From NCBI GenBank assembly GCA_019637095.1, contig JAHBWG010000009.1:62001-126000 (forward strand): a stretch of DNA of 64,000 nt, in the 5' to 3' direction. The notes under the pieces were generated by a model. That model ran no database searches. It was not told the DNA's origin and saw only the letters and a list, made by a program, of their open reading frames with translations. This document shows, piece by piece, positions 53,616-63,577 of the stretch. The translations under genes and the position numbers were made by a program. Each line of letters opens with the position of its first letter. The first letter of the stretch is position 1. This DNA comes from Sandaracinaceae bacterium (GTDB lineage: Bacteria > Myxococcota_A > Polyangia > Polyangiales > Sandaracinaceae).

Positions 53616-55370
53616 TCAGAACGAGGCGGTGCCGACGGAGCACACCGTCGACGGGTCGCAGCGCGAGGTCGCGTGGCGCGCGACGACCCGGTCGTGCTCG
53701 ATGATCTCGATCTCGGGGGCGCCGCCCATCGGCGTCGGCGGTACGCGCACGACGCCCGGGACCGGGCCGAGCGGCTCGCGCGTGTGCGCGACGCGGGCCT
53801 CGGCGGCGCGCGGGTGGCGCACGAGCACCGCGCGCTCCGGGTGCGCCGCCGGCGTGAGCGGGACGTTCATCACGGTGCGGCCGTTCTCGAGGCGGCGGCG
53901 CAGCTGCGCGGCGTCGAGCACGACCGGCTGGTGGCGCGGCGCGACGATGACCAGCGGACCGGGCTCCACCATGTCGGCGGCGAGCACGCACGGGAGCACG
54001 CCGACGAGCACGTCGCCGCGATAGAGCGCGGCGCCCGGCGCGTTCGACTCGAGGCGCAGGCCGCTCGGCGCAGCGCTCGCCGGCGCGGGCGGCGGCGGCT
54101 CGTCGGTGCCCGTGCGCTCGGCCGTCACGAAGAAGAGCAAGAACAGCGCGGCGACGCCGACGATGGCGGCGGCGCCGAGCCCGAGCAGGCCCACGACGAT
54201 CCACAGGCCGAGCGAGCGGCTCGGCGCAGGCGGGGCGGGCGCCGGCATCTGCGGCGCGTGCACCGGCGGGTGGCGGCCGGTGATGACGACCGGGCTCGCC
54301 GGGCGCACGTCGGGGCGCGTGGCCGGCGCGTTGACGTGGTCCGGGCTCGAGGGCCGCACGGCGGGCGCCGGCGGGATCGAGAGGCGCTCCTCCGGCGACG
54401 GTTGCTTGGCCGGCGCGTGCGGCTCGTCGATCCGCCAGCCGCGCTCGGGGAAGGCCCAGCCGAGCAGGCGCGCGAGCTGGTCGCGGCCATAGCCGGGCGC
54501 GATGTCGTGGAGCACCTCGCGCAGCGACATCCCGAGCGCCTGCGCGGAGGGCGTGCGCGCCTCGGGCGCGCGCGTGAGGCAGGCCATCACGATCGCGTCG
54601 AGCTGCGGCGGCACCTCGGGGCGGTAACGCGAGGGCGGGTGGAACTCGCACGCCTGCAGCATCAGCGTCGCGCGCGCCGGATCGTTCGGCGGCAGCAGCA
54701 CCCGCATCGCGAGCATCTCCCAGAGCACGACGCCGAGGCTGAACACGTCCGCCCGCGCGTCGACCTCGCGGTGGTCCGCTTGCTCGGGCGCCATGTAACA
54801 GAGCTTGCCGATCGGCACGCCGCTGCCCGTCTGCACGACGTTGTCGGCGGCCTTGACCAGCCCGAAGTCGGAGACCTTCACCGCGCCCTCGTTCGAGAGC
54901 AAGATGTTTTGCGGGGATACGTCGCGGTGCACGATGCCGAGCGGGTTGCCCGCCTCGTCGCGCTTGCGGTGCGCGTGATCGAGCCCCTGCGCGGCCTCGG
55001 CGGCGATGAAGCACGCCGCGGAGAGCTCGAGCGGCTGCGCCTGCTTGACGAGCCGCGAGAGCAGGCTCGCGAGCGTGACGCCCTCGACCATCTCCATCAC
55101 GAGGAACGGCTCGGGCTCGATGCCGAAGTCGACGACCGCGACGAGGTTCGGGTGATCGAGGCGCGCGTTGGTCCGCGCCTCCGCGGCGAAGCGCTCGAGC
55201 AGCGAGCCGCTCCGGCGGTACTGCGGGATCATGCGCTTGATCGCGACGGTCTTCTTGAAGCCCGCCTCGCCCGTGCGCTCGGCCCGGTAGACCATGGCCA
55301 TGCCGCCTTGCCCGAGCTTCTCGAGCAGCCGATATGGCCCCAGCATCATGGGCTCGGCGGCGGCGGACAC
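53616..55370 (-). CDS. Receptor-type Ser/Thr kinase with a PEGA-like domain, 584 aa
   Basis: Glycine loop GQGGMAMVY (20-28), Lys in VAIKRM (K45), catalytic loop HRDVSPQN (148-155) and DFG (168-170). Transmembrane helix about 387-415. The exported part includes a PEGA-like stretch (LRLESNAPGAALYRGDVLVG), a beta module often found in surface proteins. The signal it senses is unknown. The GTG start at 55370 lies 7 bases after TATACC. The gene leads into mutY. Confidence 0.93.
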   Translation of the reverse strand: MSAAAEPMMLGPYRLLEKLGQGGMAMVYRAERTGEAGFKKTVAIKRMIPQYRRSGSLLERFAAEARTNARLDHPNLVAVVDFGIEPEPFLVMEMVEGVTLASLLSRLVKQAQPLELSAACFIAAEAAQGLDHAHRKRDEAGNPLGIVHRDVSPQNILLSNEGAVKVSDFGLVKAADNVVQTGSGVPIGKLCYMAPEQADHREVDARADVFSLGVVLWEMLAMRVLLPPNDPARATLMLQACEFHPPSRYRPEVPPQLDAIVMACLTRAPEARTPSAQALGMSLREVLHDIAPGYGRDQLARLLGWAFPERGWRIDEPHAPAKQPSPEERLSIPPAPAVRPSSPDHVNAPATRPDVRPASPVVITGRHPPVHAPQMPAPAPPAPSRSLGLWIVVGLLGLGAAAIVGVAALFLLFFVTAERTGTDEPPPPAPASAAPSGLRLESNAPGAALYRGDVLVGVLPCVLAADMVEPGPLVIVAPRHQPVVLDAAQLRRRLENGRTVMNVPLTPAAHPERAVLVRHPRAAEARVAHTREPLGPVPGVVRVPPTPMGGAPEIEIIEHDRVVARHATSRCDPSTVCSVGTASF

Positions 55371-56752: not shown

Positions 56753-57604
56753 TCACTCGCTCAGGACGGGCAGGAGCGGGCGCAGCGAGTGGATGAGGAG
56801 CGGCTCGGCGAGGAAGAGCACGATGAACGGCACGAGCACGACCACGACGGCGGCGAGCGGGCCGACGCGGGCCATGCGCGCGGTCGCGGTCATCGCCCAG
56901 AGCAAGGCCATCAGCGGCAGGATCGACAACACCTCCGCGCCGAGGCGGAGCGAGTCGCCCGGCTCGAGCGGCAGCAACCAGACGATGAGCTGCAACAGCA
57001 GGCCGGTGCGGCCGCCCAGGACGAGGAGCCAGCCGCGGTAGAGCAGCACCTGGCGCGTCGGCTGCGCGTCGCTCGGCTGGCCGTACGCCTTGGTCAGGCT
57101 GAGGTACGGCGCGGCCATCACGAGCAGCTTCGCCGCGCCGATCAAGAGGCCGAGGCCGAGCGCCTGCGCGACGTCGAGCGCGTGCTCCAAGGCGCTCGGT
57201 GTGCCGATCGGGTGCACCTCGCCGAGCGGGCCGAACCGCAAGAGGTGCGTGAACGGGACGACGCCGGCGAGCGCGGCGATCGGCAGCACGGTGACGAGCG
57301 CGAAGGTGACGCCGCGGCGCCACTCGCCGCGCGTGAACTTCACCGCGGTGCGCGTGGGCGAGAAGGCGTCCGCGAGCGTACCGAAGAGACGCGCCGCAAC
57401 GTCCTTTGCTTCATCCGCCCATGGGACGGGCGGCATCGGGTCGCGCAGGAGGCACGCGTGGCACCGCTGCACCGCACCGTGCCAGCAAGCGAGGCATACG
57501 TAGGTGCCGCACCGGGGGCAGGTCACGAGCGCGGACCTGTCCGGGTGCTCGCCGCAGGTGGAGCCCTCCGGCGCGGCCTCCACCGGATCGTCGTCGTCGC
57601 TCAT
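56753..57604 (-). CDS. Zinc-finger, Yip1-like membrane protein, 283 aa
   Basis: The N-terminal 55 residues hold a B-box-like zinc site (CGEHPDRSALVTCPRCGTYVCLAC and nearby CHAC). After a linker come about five hydrophobic helices (FALVTVLPIAALAGVV, LLIGAAKLLVMAAPYL, and others), similar to Yip1-type proteins. Its ATG overlaps the E2 stop codon by 4 bases. A soluble zinc domain joined to a membrane bundle suggests a docking or regulatory role for the dehydrogenase, but that is inference. Confidence 0.8.
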   Translation of the reverse strand: MSDDDDPVEAAPEGSTCGEHPDRSALVTCPRCGTYVCLACWHGAVQRCHACLLRDPMPPVPWADEAKDVAARLFGTLADAFSPTRTAVKFTRGEWRRGVTFALVTVLPIAALAGVVPFTHLLRFGPLGEVHPIGTPSALEHALDVAQALGLGLLIGAAKLLVMAAPYLSLTKAYGQPSDAQPTRQVLLYRGWLLVLGGRTGLLLQLIVWLLPLEPGDSLRLGAEVLSILPLMALLWAMTATARMARVGPLAAVVVVLVPFIVLFLAEPLLIHSLRPLLPVLSE

Positions 57605-59007
57605 GCCATCTCGAGGAACAGCCGATCCGGGTCCTCGACGTAGCCGATGATGTCGTAGGCGAACGCGGCGCCGACGTGGCCGTCGACGATGCGGTGATCG
57701 AACGAGAGGCTCAGGAGCATCACGTCGCCGACGACGATCTCGCCGTTCCTCACGACGGGCTTCTGCTTGATCTGGTGGACGCCGAGGATGCCGACCTCGG
57801 GGTGGTTGAGGATCGGGGTCGCGAACAGGCCGCCGTCCTTGCCGAGGCTCGTGATGGTGAAGGTCGAGCCGCGCAGGTCCTCGGTGGCGATCGTGCCGTC
57901 CTTCGCGGCCTGGCCGAGCCGCGCGATCTCGGCGGCGATCTCGAGGATGCTCTTGCGGTCCGCGTCCTTCACGACGGGGACCATGAGGCCCATGTCGGTC
58001 GAGGCGGCGATGCCGACGTTGTAGTAGCGGCGATAGACGAGCTCGTTGGTCGACTCGTCGAGCGCGGAGTTGAGGACCGGCGCGCGCTTGAGCGCGGCGA
58101 CGACCGCCTTGACGATGAACGGCAAGAACGTGAGCTTGACGCCGGCCTTCTCGGCGGCGGGCGTCAGGCGCGCGCGCAGCGCCTTGAGCGCGCCGACGTC
58201 GCACTCCTCGACGAAGGTGAAGTGCGCCGCCGTGTTCTTCACGAGCTGCATGCGCTCGGCGATCTTGCGGCGCACGCCGACGAAGGGCTTGCGGTCCTCG
58301 AGCGCGCGCTGCTCGGGCGAGGGCGCCTCGATCGCGATCGGGGCGCGCGCGGCGGCGGGCGCGCGCGCGGCAGCGGCGGGCGCCGGGGCGGGGGCCGGAG
58401 CGCCGCCGCGATCGGAGTACGCGCCCACGTCCTCCTTGGTCACGCGGCCGCGCGGCCCGGTGCCCGGGACGTGGCGCAGGTCGACCCCGAGGTCCCGCGC
58501 GAGCTTGCGCGTCGCGGGCGTAGCGAGCGGCTTCGGGTCGAAGTGGTCCGCGGCGTCGGCCGCGATCGCCGCGACCGCCGGCGTGCCCGGCTCGGTGCGC
58601 GTGAGGAAGCCCGTGCCCGGCAGCGTCTCCTTGATGTCGCCGACGGCGGTCGCGGCGGGGCCGTCGACCTTCACCGTCGGCGCCGTCTTCGCCGGCGCCG
58701 GCGGCGCGGCGACCGGCGGCGGAGGCGGCGGCGCCGCGTGCTTCACGGTGGCCGGCCCGCTCGCGCCGTTGACGGCGAGCGTCACGATCACGCTGCCGAC
58801 GGGGACGACGTCGCCGACGCCCGCGCGCACCTCCTCGATGCGGCCGGTCTTGGGCGCGCCGATGGTGACGGTGGCCTTGTCGGTCATCACCTCGACCATC
58901 GGATCGTCCTCGCGGACCTCCTGGCCGGGGCTGACCAACCAGCTCACGATCTCGCCCTCCATCACGCCTTCGCCGATGTCGGGCAGCTTGAACTCGAACA
59001 GCGACAT
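57601..59007 (-). CDS. Dihydrolipoyllysine-residue acyltransferase (E2)
   Basis: The lipoyl domain has the acceptor K44 in MTDKA. A Pro/Ala hinge follows, then an E3-binding domain (ATPATRKLARDLGVDLRHVP...GPRGRVTKEDV) and the catalytic domain with the HxxxDG motif (HRIVDG at 438-443). At 468 residues it has one lipoyl domain. It transfers the acyl group to CoA within a 2-oxoacid dehydrogenase complex; the substrate could be pyruvate or a branched-chain 2-oxoacid. It lies 15 bases downstream of E1 beta. Confidence 0.92.
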   Translation of the reverse strand: MSLFEFKLPDIGEGVMEGEIVSWLVSPGQEVREDDPMVEVMTDKATVTIGAPKTGRIEEVRAGVGDVVPVGSVIVTLAVNGASGPATVKHAAPPPPPPVAAPPAPAKTAPTVKVDGPAATAVGDIKETLPGTGFLTRTEPGTPAVAAIAADAADHFDPKPLATPATRKLARDLGVDLRHVPGTGPRGRVTKEDVGAYSDRGGAPAPAPAPAAAARAPAAARAPIAIEAPSPEQRALEDRKPFVGVRRKIAERMQLVKNTAAHFTFVEECDVGALKALRARLTPAAEKAGVKLTFLPFIVKAVVAALKRAPVLNSALDESTNELVYRRYYNVGIAASTDMGLMVPVVKDADRKSILEIAAEIARLGQAAKDGTIATEDLRGSTFTITSLGKDGGLFATPILNHPEVGILGVHQIKQKPVVRNGEIVVGDVMLLSLSFDHRIVDGHVGAAFAYDIIGYVEDPDRLFLEMA

Positions 59008-59022
59008 GGACGCCTCGTCTCT

Positions 59023-59997
59023 CTAGAAGGCCGCGGTGCTCGCGAGCGCGGGCGCGATCCGGTGCGCGAGCGGGAGATACTCGTTCTCGAGCGTGTACGG
59101 GAACGGCGTGTCCCAGCCGGTCACGCGCGCGGGCGGGGCCTCGAGGTGCAAGAACGCTTGCTCCATCACGCGCTGCACGATCTCGGCGCCGAACCCGCAG
59201 GTCTTCGGGGCCTCGTGCACGACGACGAGCCGGCCGGTCTTCTTCACGCTCTCTACGATCGTGTCGACGTCGAGCGGCCAGAGCGTGCGCAGGTCGATGA
59301 CCTCCGCGTCGACGCCCTCGCCGCTGACGTGCTCGGCCGCCGCGAGCGACTCGTAGACCATGGCGCCCCAGCTCACGACGGTCACCGCCCGGCCCTCGCG
59401 CACCACCTTGGCGCGCCCGAGCGGCACCTCGTAGTCGCCCTCGGGCACGTCCATCTTCACCGCCCGGTAGACGCGCTTGGGCTCCATGAAGAGGACCGGA
59501 TCGTCGTCGCGGATCGAGGCGAGCAAGAGGCCCTTCGCGTCGTAGGGGTTGCTCGGGCACACCACCTTGAGGCCCGCCGTGTGGATGAAGAGCGACTCCG
59601 GCGACTGCGAGTGATAGAGGCCGCCGCGGATGCCGCCGCCGACCGGGGTGCGGATGACGATCGGGCAGGCGTACTCGCCGCCCGAGCGCCAGCGCATCTT
59701 GGCCGCCTCGCTGACGATCTGGTCGAACGCGGGGAAGATGAAGTCCGCGAACTGGATCTCGGGCACCGGGCGCAGGCCGTAGAGGGCCATGCCGATCGCG
59801 GTGCCGATGATGCCGCCCTCGGCGAGCGGCGTGTCGATCACGCGGTCCTCGCCGAACTCGTCGTAGAGGCCCTCGGTGACGCGGAACACGCCGCCGACCT
59901 TGCCGACGTCCTCGCCGAGCACGACGACGCGATCGTCGCGCCGCATCTCGCCGGCGAGCGCCTGGTTGATCGCCTGGACCATGGTGAGCTGAGCCAT
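59023..59997 (-). CDS. 2-oxoacid dehydrogenase E1 beta subunit
   Basis: The beta subunit of the heterotetrameric E1. LGEDVGKVGGVFRVTEGLYDEFG, DTPLAEGGIIGTAIGMALYG, EIQFADFIFPAFDQIVSE and RTPVGGGIRGGLYHSQSPE are full family blocks, including the conserved GEDVG Glu and the substrate-channel residues. At 324 residues it is complete and looks fully functional. It needs an alpha subunit to bind thiamine diphosphate, so its partner is the unusual E1 alpha next to it or another alpha elsewhere. Confidence 0.93.
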   Translation of the reverse strand: MAQLTMVQAINQALAGEMRRDDRVVVLGEDVGKVGGVFRVTEGLYDEFGEDRVIDTPLAEGGIIGTAIGMALYGLRPVPEIQFADFIFPAFDQIVSEAAKMRWRSGGEYACPIVIRTPVGGGIRGGLYHSQSPESLFIHTAGLKVVCPSNPYDAKGLLLASIRDDDPVLFMEPKRVYRAVKMDVPEGDYEVPLGRAKVVREGRAVTVVSWGAMVYESLAAAEHVSGEGVDAEVIDLRTLWPLDVDTIVESVKKTGRLVVVHEAPKTCGFGAEIVQRVMEQAFLHLEAPPARVTGWDTPFPYTLENEYLPLAHRIAPALASTAAF

Positions 59998-60020: not shown

Positions 60021-60935
60021 TTAGCCGCGAGCCTCGGCGAGCTGCGCCCGGAGGTGCTCCGGGAGCTCGCCGTACACGTCCTCGAACAGCGTGGAGAGGT
60101 CCGGACGCCCCGCTCGGTCCGCCGCGGCGAGCGCGCTCGCGAGCTCGTTCTCGAACCGCGCCCCGAGGCTCGCCGCGCGCTCCGCGCCGAGCGCCGCGAC
60201 GGCGCGCGCGTGCGCCTCGTCGTCGGCGCCGAGCTCGAGGTCGAGCACCGTGGCGCCCTCCCCGCGCAGGGCGCGCTCGAGCGCCTCGCGCAGCGCCGCC
60301 TCGACCGCGTCGGCGTCGCTCCCGTCGCAGCGCGCCTCGAACAGACCGTACGCGATCGCGTGCTCGGCCGCGCCCGCCTGGCCGGCGCGTACGCGGCACG
60401 CGAACACCACCGGCGCCTTCATCACGCCCGCGAAGTTGAGCGCGGTGTGGAAGTCCGCCGCGTCCACCTCGGGCGCGTCGAGGAGCGCCACGCACGCGAG
60501 CTCCTCACCGCGGGTGCGCGCCGCCCACGCGACGCCGACCGCGTGCGGCAGGTGCGTCGCGGCGGGGGCGCTCGAGGACGCGATGCGCAGCGCGCGCGCC
60601 GACACGCCCGCCGGCGCCTCGCGCCCGCGCAGCGGGTCGTTCGCGTCGGCGAAGACGCGGTGCACGAACGTGTCGAGGCGCATGCCGCGCAGCGCCGCCA
60701 CCGGCCAGTCGCTCGCGCCGGGGAACACCCAGTCGGTCGGCGAGAGCGCGGCGATCACCCCGACGAGCGCGGCCTCACGTCCGGTCGCGCGCGGCAAGAA
60801 GCCGATCGTGCCCGCGTCCCCGAGCGCGGCGAGCCGCTCGTCGATCACGCGCAGCCGCACGATCGCCTCGGCGTGCGCCGAGGCCGCCTCGCGCGTGCCC
60901 GCGCTCGTGCTCGCCCCTACGTCCATGTCCGTCAT
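60021..60935 (-). CDS. E1-alpha-like subunit with a degraded cofactor site
   Basis: A 304-residue protein with the E1 alpha fold (PRATGREAALVGVIAALSPTDWVFP, LRGMRLDTFVHRVFADANDPLRGRE, DFHTALNFAGVMKAPVVFAC). The thiamine-diphosphate motif GDG...NN is missing: where GDGA is expected it reads LDAP, and the NNQWAIS segment reads VRAGQAG-like (RVRAGQA). The YREHG and AHSTSDD segments are also replaced. It is also about 60-100 residues shorter than usual. It shares a 4-base overlap with lipA and lies 23 bases before E1 beta, so it is under selection to stay. It may be a structural partner or a regulator. Confidence 0.85.
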   Translation of the reverse strand: MTDMDVGASTSAGTREAASAHAEAIVRLRVIDERLAALGDAGTIGFLPRATGREAALVGVIAALSPTDWVFPGASDWPVAALRGMRLDTFVHRVFADANDPLRGREAPAGVSARALRIASSSAPAATHLPHAVGVAWAARTRGEELACVALLDAPEVDAADFHTALNFAGVMKAPVVFACRVRAGQAGAAEHAIAYGLFEARCDGSDADAVEAALREALERALRGEGATVLDLELGADDEAHARAVAALGAERAASLGARFENELASALAAADRAGRPDLSTLFEDVYGELPEHLRAQLAEARG

Positions 60936-61876
60936 TCGATCACTCTCAGGTGCGTGCGCTTGCCGTAGCGATCCTCGAAGGGCGCCGCCGGCTCGCCGCG
61001 CAAGATCCCCTGCAAGAAGGCTTCCGCGGCGCGGTAGCTCGAGCGCACGAGGGGGCCCGACGCGACGTAGCGGAAGCCGAGCTCGAGCCCGCGCTCGCGG
61101 TAGCGCTCGAACTCCGCCGGCTCGACGAAGCGGGCGACCTCCGCGTGCTTGGGCGAGGGGCGCAGGTACTGCCCGATGGTGAGCACGTCGAGCTCGACCT
61201 CGCGCAGCCGCGCCATCGCGTCGAAGACCTCCTCCTCGGTCTCGCCGCAGCCGACCATCAGCGAGGTCTTGAGCACGCTCGCGCCCGCGTCACGAGCGGC
61301 ACGCAGCACGCCCACCGATCGATCCCACGAGCAGCGTGCGTCGCGCATGTGGCGCTGGAGGCGCGGGACGACCTCGACGTTGTGCGCGAACACGTCCGGC
61401 GCGCCATCGCGCACCACCGTCGCGACGTCCTTGCCGACCCCCGCGAAGTCGCCGACGAGCGTCTCGACGAGCATGTCCGGGCGGTGGTGCTTGATCCGGC
61501 GGACGGTCGCGGCGACGTGGGCGGCGCCGCCGTCGAGCAGGTCGTCGCGGTCCACCATCGTCAAGACCACGTACGCGAGGTCGAGCTCCGCGAGCGCGCG
61601 CGCCACGTTCTCGGGCTCGCGCGGGTCGACGAGCCCGCCCGGATCACCCGTGTTGACGGCGCAGAACCGGCAGCCGCGCGTGCACGTCTCGCCGAGGATC
61701 ATGATCGTGGCGGTGCCCTCGCCCCAGCACTCGCCGATGTTCGGACAGCGCGCCTCCTCGCACACGGTGTGCAAGTCGAGCTGACGCAGGGTGCTCTTGA
61801 TGCGGCCGTACCGCTCGCCGCCGGGGAGGCGGACCTTCAGCCACTCGGGCTTGCGTTGGCTCACGGGGGGGGACAT
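60932..61876 (-). CDS. lipA: Lipoyl synthase
   Basis: A radical-SAM enzyme that inserts two sulfurs into octanoyl groups to form lipoyl cofactor. The auxiliary cluster motif is CEEARCPNIGEC (C39, C44, C50); the radical-SAM motif is CTRGCRFC (C65, C69, C72); the C-terminal RSSY is in VRSSYRAAEAF. At 314 residues it is complete. The ATG at 61876 is followed at once by eight C (codons 2-4). It is the first gene of the lipoate/dehydrogenase operon, supplying the cofactor for the E2 in the same transcript. Confidence 0.95.
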   Translation of the reverse strand: MSPPVSQRKPEWLKVRLPGGERYGRIKSTLRQLDLHTVCEEARCPNIGECWGEGTATIMILGETCTRGCRFCAVNTGDPGGLVDPREPENVARALAELDLAYVVLTMVDRDDLLDGGAAHVAATVRRIKHHRPDMLVETLVGDFAGVGKDVATVVRDGAPDVFAHNVEVVPRLQRHMRDARCSWDRSVGVLRAARDAGASVLKTSLMVGCGETEEEVFDAMARLREVELDVLTIGQYLRPSPKHAEVARFVEPAEFERYRERGLELGFRYVASGPLVRSSYRAAEAFLQGILRGEPAAPFEDRYGKRTHLRVIE

Positions 61877-62776: not shown

Positions 62777-62854
62777 GCCTTCCGCCCCGCTCTCCTGGGG
62801 GCGGCGCGTGCGCAGTTGTTCGTGCGCGCGGGCGCGAGTCGATACGCTTCGCTC

Positions 62855-63577
62855 GTGGATCGCGACGCGTTCGAAGAGGCGCTCCTCGGCGTGATGGAGC
62901 AGAAGCAGCACTGGGCCTGGCCGCGCTTCACGGCGGGCGAGGTCGCCGCCGACCGGCTGCACGTGCACCTCGAGCAGGAGTACGCGGTCTACGTGCGTGA
63001 CTTCCCGGTCCTCGTCGCGCGAGCCTACGTGCAGTGCCCGATCGCGGCGGTGCGGCGCGAGCTCGCGGAGAACATCTACGAGGAGGAGACGGGCGGGCTG
63101 GTCGCCGGCCGTCCGCACCCGGAGCTGTTCCTCGAGTACCCGCGCGGGCTGGGGATGGATCTCGCGCGCTTCGACGCGGTGGAGCTGTTACCTGGCGCCG
63201 CCGCCTATCGCGCCTTGCTGGACGACGCGACGCAGGCGCGCGGCTGGTCGGTGGCGGCGGCCGTCACGACCCTGTTCGTCGAGGGCACGGCGCACGAGCG
63301 CAGCGTGCTCGACCCGAGCGCCCCGCCGCGGCCGGAGCCGCCTCTCGAGGAGCACCCGCTCGTCGTCCACTACGGCCTGCCGCTCGAGCACCTCGCGCTC
63401 ACCAAGGCGCACCGCCGCGTCGAAGGAGAGCACCGCGCCGCCGCGTGGCGCGTGATGCTCGAGCACGTCCCCGCCGCCTCGCGCGAGCTCGTCGTGGCGG
63501 CGATGGAGGAGACGCTCGCGGCGTGGCTCGCCTACCGCGACGACGTCGCGGCGGCCGTCGGCCTCGCGCGGCCCTGA
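62855..63577 (+). CDS. Heme-oxygenase-like (TenA/PqqC-fold) protein, 240 aa
   Basis: An all-helical fold with acidic and His residues spaced as in diiron oxygenases of the TenA/CADD/PqqC group: HLEQEYAVYVRDFPVL, ELAENIYEEETGG, HYGLPLEHLALTKAHRRVEGEH. A metal oxygenase role is plausible but unproven. The GTG at 62855 is supported by a TACGCT box 6 bases upstream; a TTG at 62816 would add 13 residues and a poor N-terminus. It precedes a secretin gene. Confidence 0.75.
   Translation: MDRDAFEEALLGVMEQKQHWAWPRFTAGEVAADRLHVHLEQEYAVYVRDFPVLVARAYVQCPIAAVRRELAENIYEEETGGLVAGRPHPELFLEYPRGLGMDLARFDAVELLPGAAAYRALLDDATQARGWSVAAAVTTLFVEGTAHERSVLDPSAPPRPEPPLEEHPLVVHYGLPLEHLALTKAHRRVEGEHRAAAWRVMLEHVPAASRELVVAAMEETLAAWLAYRDDVAAAVGLARP

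Follow-up and report, generated by a model that had tools for sequence, protein, structure and literature searches.

A degenerate E1-alpha-like protein before E1 beta and E2 in Sandaracinaceae: a putative pseudo-enzyme that lacks the thiamine diphosphate motifs

The window, a stretch of 64,000 nucleotides from the genome of a Sandaracinaceae bacterium, carries a lipA-E1-E2 operon in which the place of the E1 alpha gene is taken by an E1-alpha-like protein without cofactor motif (Table 1). The same arrangement, a degenerate alpha directly before beta and E2, was common to all ten Sandaracinaceae genomes. Judging from the sequences and the gene content, we lean towards the reading that this protein, termed alpha-star, is a non-catalytic E1 alpha paralogue, retained in a structural or regulatory role, while alphaB and beta would form the decarboxylase. 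The term alphaA is used for the operon alpha and alphaB for an orphan canonical E1 alpha beside E3; G with a number stands for a genome (G000, own genome), L with a number for a locus.

The genes on the minus strand are ordered lipA, alpha-star, E1 beta and E2. The ATG start of alpha-star overlaps the lipA stop (ATGA), followed by gaps of 23 bases between alpha-star and beta and 18 bases between beta and E2. The neighbours had been described as intact beforehand, and active-site residues, E2 domains and lipA score were indeed all in order: beta has the Transket_pyr and Transketolase_C domains with the Glu in TPLAEGG and the His in YHSQSPE in place, and the profile score of lipA exceeds the cut-off. 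The roles of these two beta residues, an activating one for the Glu, are known from the enzyme family. For the His, the role has been described as H128beta (PMC2663715). Downstream of E2, at a distance of about 2 kb, is a serine/threonine protein kinase gene, and a gene for a Haem-oxygenase-like/TENA_THI-4 family protein was observed near the operon.

Table 1 Features of the operon, motif sites of alpha-star and nearby genes; positions are those of the window
Feature	Position	Strand	Evidence
Alpha-star, E1-alpha-like subunit without cofactor motif, 304 aa	60021..60935	-	profile scores, predicted structure, alignment
E1 beta, 324 aa, with catalytic Glu and His	59026..59997	-	profile match, family comparison
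E2 acyltransferase, 468 aa; one lipoyl, E3-binding and catalytic domain	57601..59007	-	profile match
lipA, lipoyl synthase; stop overlaps alpha-star start	60932..61876	-	profile match
D153-A-P155 in place of GDG/GEG (GxG glycines = D153, P155)	60471..60479	-	alignment
V182-R183 in place of the NN pair; next inner-loop stretch WAISxPxxxQ deleted	60387..60392	-	alignment
A74-S75-D76 in place of YRE	60708..60716	-	alignment
HSTSDDPxxYR outer-loop deletion, about residues 237-239, exact break uncertain	60219..60227	-	alignment
Serine/threonine protein kinase gene	53616-55370	-	
Haem-oxygenase-like/TENA_THI-4 family protein	62816-63577	+	

Alpha-star matched Pfam E1_dh (PF00676) with 87.4 bits, above the gathering cut-off of 22, and scored far below the cut-off of TIGR03181, the PDH E1 alpha equivalog (131.7 bits, cut-off 411). 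An AlphaFold model (pLDDT 82.4, pTM 0.83) kept the E1-alpha fold. Its best structural match was 1um9 (Z 31.4 over 286 residues), the best chains being 1um9, 1umb and human BCKDH with Z about 30 over about 286 residues. In the alignment, many fold positions were 90-100 % kept in the ten family sequences, among them R34, E54, D68, P72, R83, G84, G134, F162, H163 and P175 with 100 %. Score, model and invariant positions agree with the preliminary description, which had seen the fold and many family blocks of the alpha subunit retained. A fused alpha-star-beta model reached a pTM of 0.51, with the beta part mostly below pLDDT 40; the input alignment was shallow for beta, and the weakness probably stems from too few aligned beta sequences.

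The motifs were read from an alignment of the alpha-star family with 43 canonical operon alphas and 40 alphaB sequences, 85 columns being at least 90 % conserved among the latter two sets. The replacement of GDG and NN and the changed YREHG and AHS segments, all reported earlier, were recovered as DAP, VR and ASD; the HS falls into a gap, and the loop is deleted beyond the earlier report. The loss thus comprises two deletions, of the inner and the outer active-site loop, besides point changes. The GxG glycines, NN, WAISxP, the inner-loop Q and the H/S/S of HSxxDDP were kept in 0-20 % of the ten family sequences, and the HSxxDDP outer loop, which engages the lipoyl domain, was deleted in all of them. 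Residues that touch the diphosphate and Mg in the E1 of Geobacillus include N202alpha; the inner loop does so too and, together with the outer loop, also engages the lipoyl domain (PMC2663715). Because all conserved ligand motifs and both active-site loops are gone, we strongly infer that alpha-star cannot hold Mg-thiamine diphosphate. Canonical E1 alphas (Thermus 1um9/1umb, human BCKDH 1dtw, Geobacillus PDH 1w85/3dv0) share with alpha-star the fold, the E1_dh family and a place in the operon ahead of E1 beta and E2, but alpha-star lacks GDG, NN, the inner loop and the HSxxDD outer loop.

A second, complete E1 alpha is present in the genome. The own genome encodes four E1 betas (C187, C133, C191, C138); those at C133, C191 and C138 adjoin canonical alphas of their own. 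AlphaB, with all motifs intact, lies directly upstream of E3 with no beta beside it (G000 C141:62251-63357). It shares its E1 alpha ancestry with alpha-star, yet forms a separate clade. AlphaB was found in nine of the ten family genomes and not found in G008 (84 % complete), G060 and G176; all seven family genomes inspected for it, G000 to G006, have the alphaB-E3 pair, and every copy checked had kept QNN and the H(S/T)xSDDP loop. Against TIGR03181 alphaB scored 391.8 (cut-off 411), and pyruvate or branched-chain oxo acids are candidate substrates of the complex. Homodimeric AceE was considered as a substitute and rejected, there being no aceE match in the own genome.

The gene order lipA-alpha-star-beta-E2-alphaB-E3 is contiguous in the deep Myxococcota genomes G186, G165 and G203, and alphaA-beta-E2-alphaB-E3 with a canonical alphaA occurs in G095, G163 and G159. 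Five genomes (G054, G258, G304, G031, G120) have beta-E2 without alphaA and possess alphaB-E3; in these, alphaB must be the only partner of beta, barring an alpha that escaped notice, so the alphaA slot is dispensable. Ten genomes have a canonical alphaA without alphaB. The statistical link between degeneration and the presence of alphaB was weak and not significant (Fisher p = 0.10, with G008 left out and relatedness ignored). Loci with E1 beta and E2 and without operon alpha were also observed (L202, L204, L209, L210, L192), the sole near-relative alpha being an alphaB beside E3, elsewhere or downstream. Gene content and the contiguous operons of other Myxococcota make alphaB the most likely partner that completes the active site of beta, alphaB-beta being the putative working E1.

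According to this proposal, the beta of the lipA/alpha-star operon would pair with the alphaB encoded elsewhere beside E3, forming the decarboxylase. In the simplest form, alpha-star would stand in for one alphaB chain of the alpha2beta2 heterotetramer, or for both, and thereby set the count of working sites per E1; alternatively, it may tune E1 in some other way. Counting against the proposal are the five genomes that dispense with alphaA, the genomes in which alphaB was not found, the faster evolution of alpha-star at wider distances and the non-significant link of degeneration with alphaB. A more specific version is put forward tentatively and with less confidence: in part of the Myxococcota, E1 may be an asymmetric heterotetramer of alpha-star, alphaB and two beta, one site working and the other always empty, a state with several independent origins.

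The retention of alpha-star bears on the main rival, which we consider rather unlikely, namely the slow erosion of alpha-star as a redundant subunit: with alphaB serving beta, alphaA would lose its cofactor site, drift and disappear, and present constraint would come only from harmless folding or translational coupling to beta. Against erosion, the family proteins are of 286-319 aa with an open frame without stops in all ten genomes, including one of 2.9 Mb (75 % complete), and have positions that are invariant across the family; like all comparisons here, these are based on assemblies, of which many are metagenomic. E1 beta was 76-89 % identical in the nine other family genomes. In two close species pairs, dN/dS of alpha-star was 0.109 (bootstrap 0.05-0.21) and 0.224 (0.15-0.32), with intervals well below 1 and values like those of alphaB (0.155, 0.186); beta had 0.017 and 0.052. 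Alpha-star is under purifying selection. Simple decay with stops, named beforehand as a refutation of a conserved pseudo-enzyme, is refuted by the open frames and the low ratios of the close pairs. At wider distances alpha-star evolved faster than alphaB (w 0.53 vs 0.24 in one pair); there, synonymous sites are probably partly saturated because third positions have about 97 % G+C.

Erosion draws its support from the long branches, from the recurrence of degeneration and from a graded series within the same slot, running from canonical through loop-less (GEG and NN retained) and degenerate to absent, the last in the five genomes without alphaA. The loop-less forms (G284, L103, L104) are a possible intermediate. 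GEG and NN were read in the loop-less L104 and G284, and the HSxxDDP loop is lost with NN kept in the operon alphas L103:228-1157, L104:6001-7002 and L217:7213-8157. In the alpha tree, the degenerate sequences of the family stand beside canonical alphaA, with alphaB as separate clade (SH-aLRT 99), and all degenerate alphas join (support 92-93) on very long branches; such deep joins are unreliable because the long branches are shared. The beta tree needs six changes to the degenerate state, at least four of them forced by well-supported branches, and places them in the Sandaracinaceae, in G013 (another family of the order), at L108 and in deep lineages. A repeated origin of degeneration is therefore favoured, and a single ancient origin was rejected on the forced changes of the beta tree and the long branches of the alpha-tree join. 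L108:6001-6927, from a Deltaproteobacteria MAG, is a degenerate alpha (GDD; NN and loop lost) beside beta; it groups with canonical relatives, including the canonical G128, and is an independent case. Thermoplasmata archaea (L100, L105, L115) have E1 alphas 33-42 % identical to alpha-star; the genes were possibly exchanged between the groups.

A function outside E1 catalysis, e.g., in lipoylation or the assembly of the complex with lipA or E2 as partner, appears improbable. Such a function would fit the overlap of the lipA stop with the alpha-star start in the window and the position of lipA immediately before degenerate alphas in those deep lineages that were inspected, but within the family lipA was immediately upstream in only four of ten genomes, about 2.6-3.3 kb upstream in three and not seen within the fetched stretch in the other three; moreover, the canonical alphaA of G011 also has an upstream lipA. 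The tight coupling to lipA, formerly brought forward against decay together with that to E1 beta, is not a family-wide feature.

An active site of alpha-star and beta for another cofactor or reaction, raised in the preliminary description, is very improbable: the active-site residues of beta are kept, but nothing positive was found, and the residues at the motif site vary by species (DAP, DGP, DGR, ADT, SET, SES, GEA), and no new motif common to the family sequences replaces GDG. For the same reason, of the expected clade of homologues sharing LDAP in the same operon, full length and shared loss were found, the shared LDAP was not. An error of sequencing or assembly has a negligible probability, as has a recent pseudogene, since separate assemblies of ten species, one a single-contig genome of 10.3 Mb, have the same loss and no stops. 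The family-wide loss at full length, the purifying selection and the second complete alpha argue for the retained pseudo-enzyme beside E1 beta that had been suggested at first.

The nearest analogue for the mode of action of alpha-star may be TKTL1 beside transketolase. In TKTL1, cofactor residues are missing owing to a deletion of 38 residues, and heterodimers with TKT have been reported (PMC12525540). Both are paralogues of thiamine diphosphate enzymes in which a deletion takes cofactor residues, kept alongside a paralogue that is active or, in the case of alphaB, motif-complete and putatively active; TKTL1, however, is a human protein from a different enzyme family with a homodimeric parent enzyme, and its heterodimer has been reported, whereas a complex with alpha-star would be a putative one. 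The open-licence literature yielded no description of any cofactor-less E1 alpha, which is weak evidence of novelty.

E1 has a gatekeeper role in central carbon metabolism. It is an old question whether the two active sites of E1 need mutual communication, and half-of-the-sites behaviour has long been debated. If alpha-star is part of the tetramer, these bacteria would possess natural E1s with one disabled site, a fixed half-of-the-sites form, and active-site communication would become testable by mixing three natural proteins. A plain family match labels such genes E1 alpha and thus leads to a wrong assignment of the active subunit. The canonical, loop-less, cofactor-less and absent states would represent a repeated, graded natural series from an enzyme subunit to a pseudo-enzyme.
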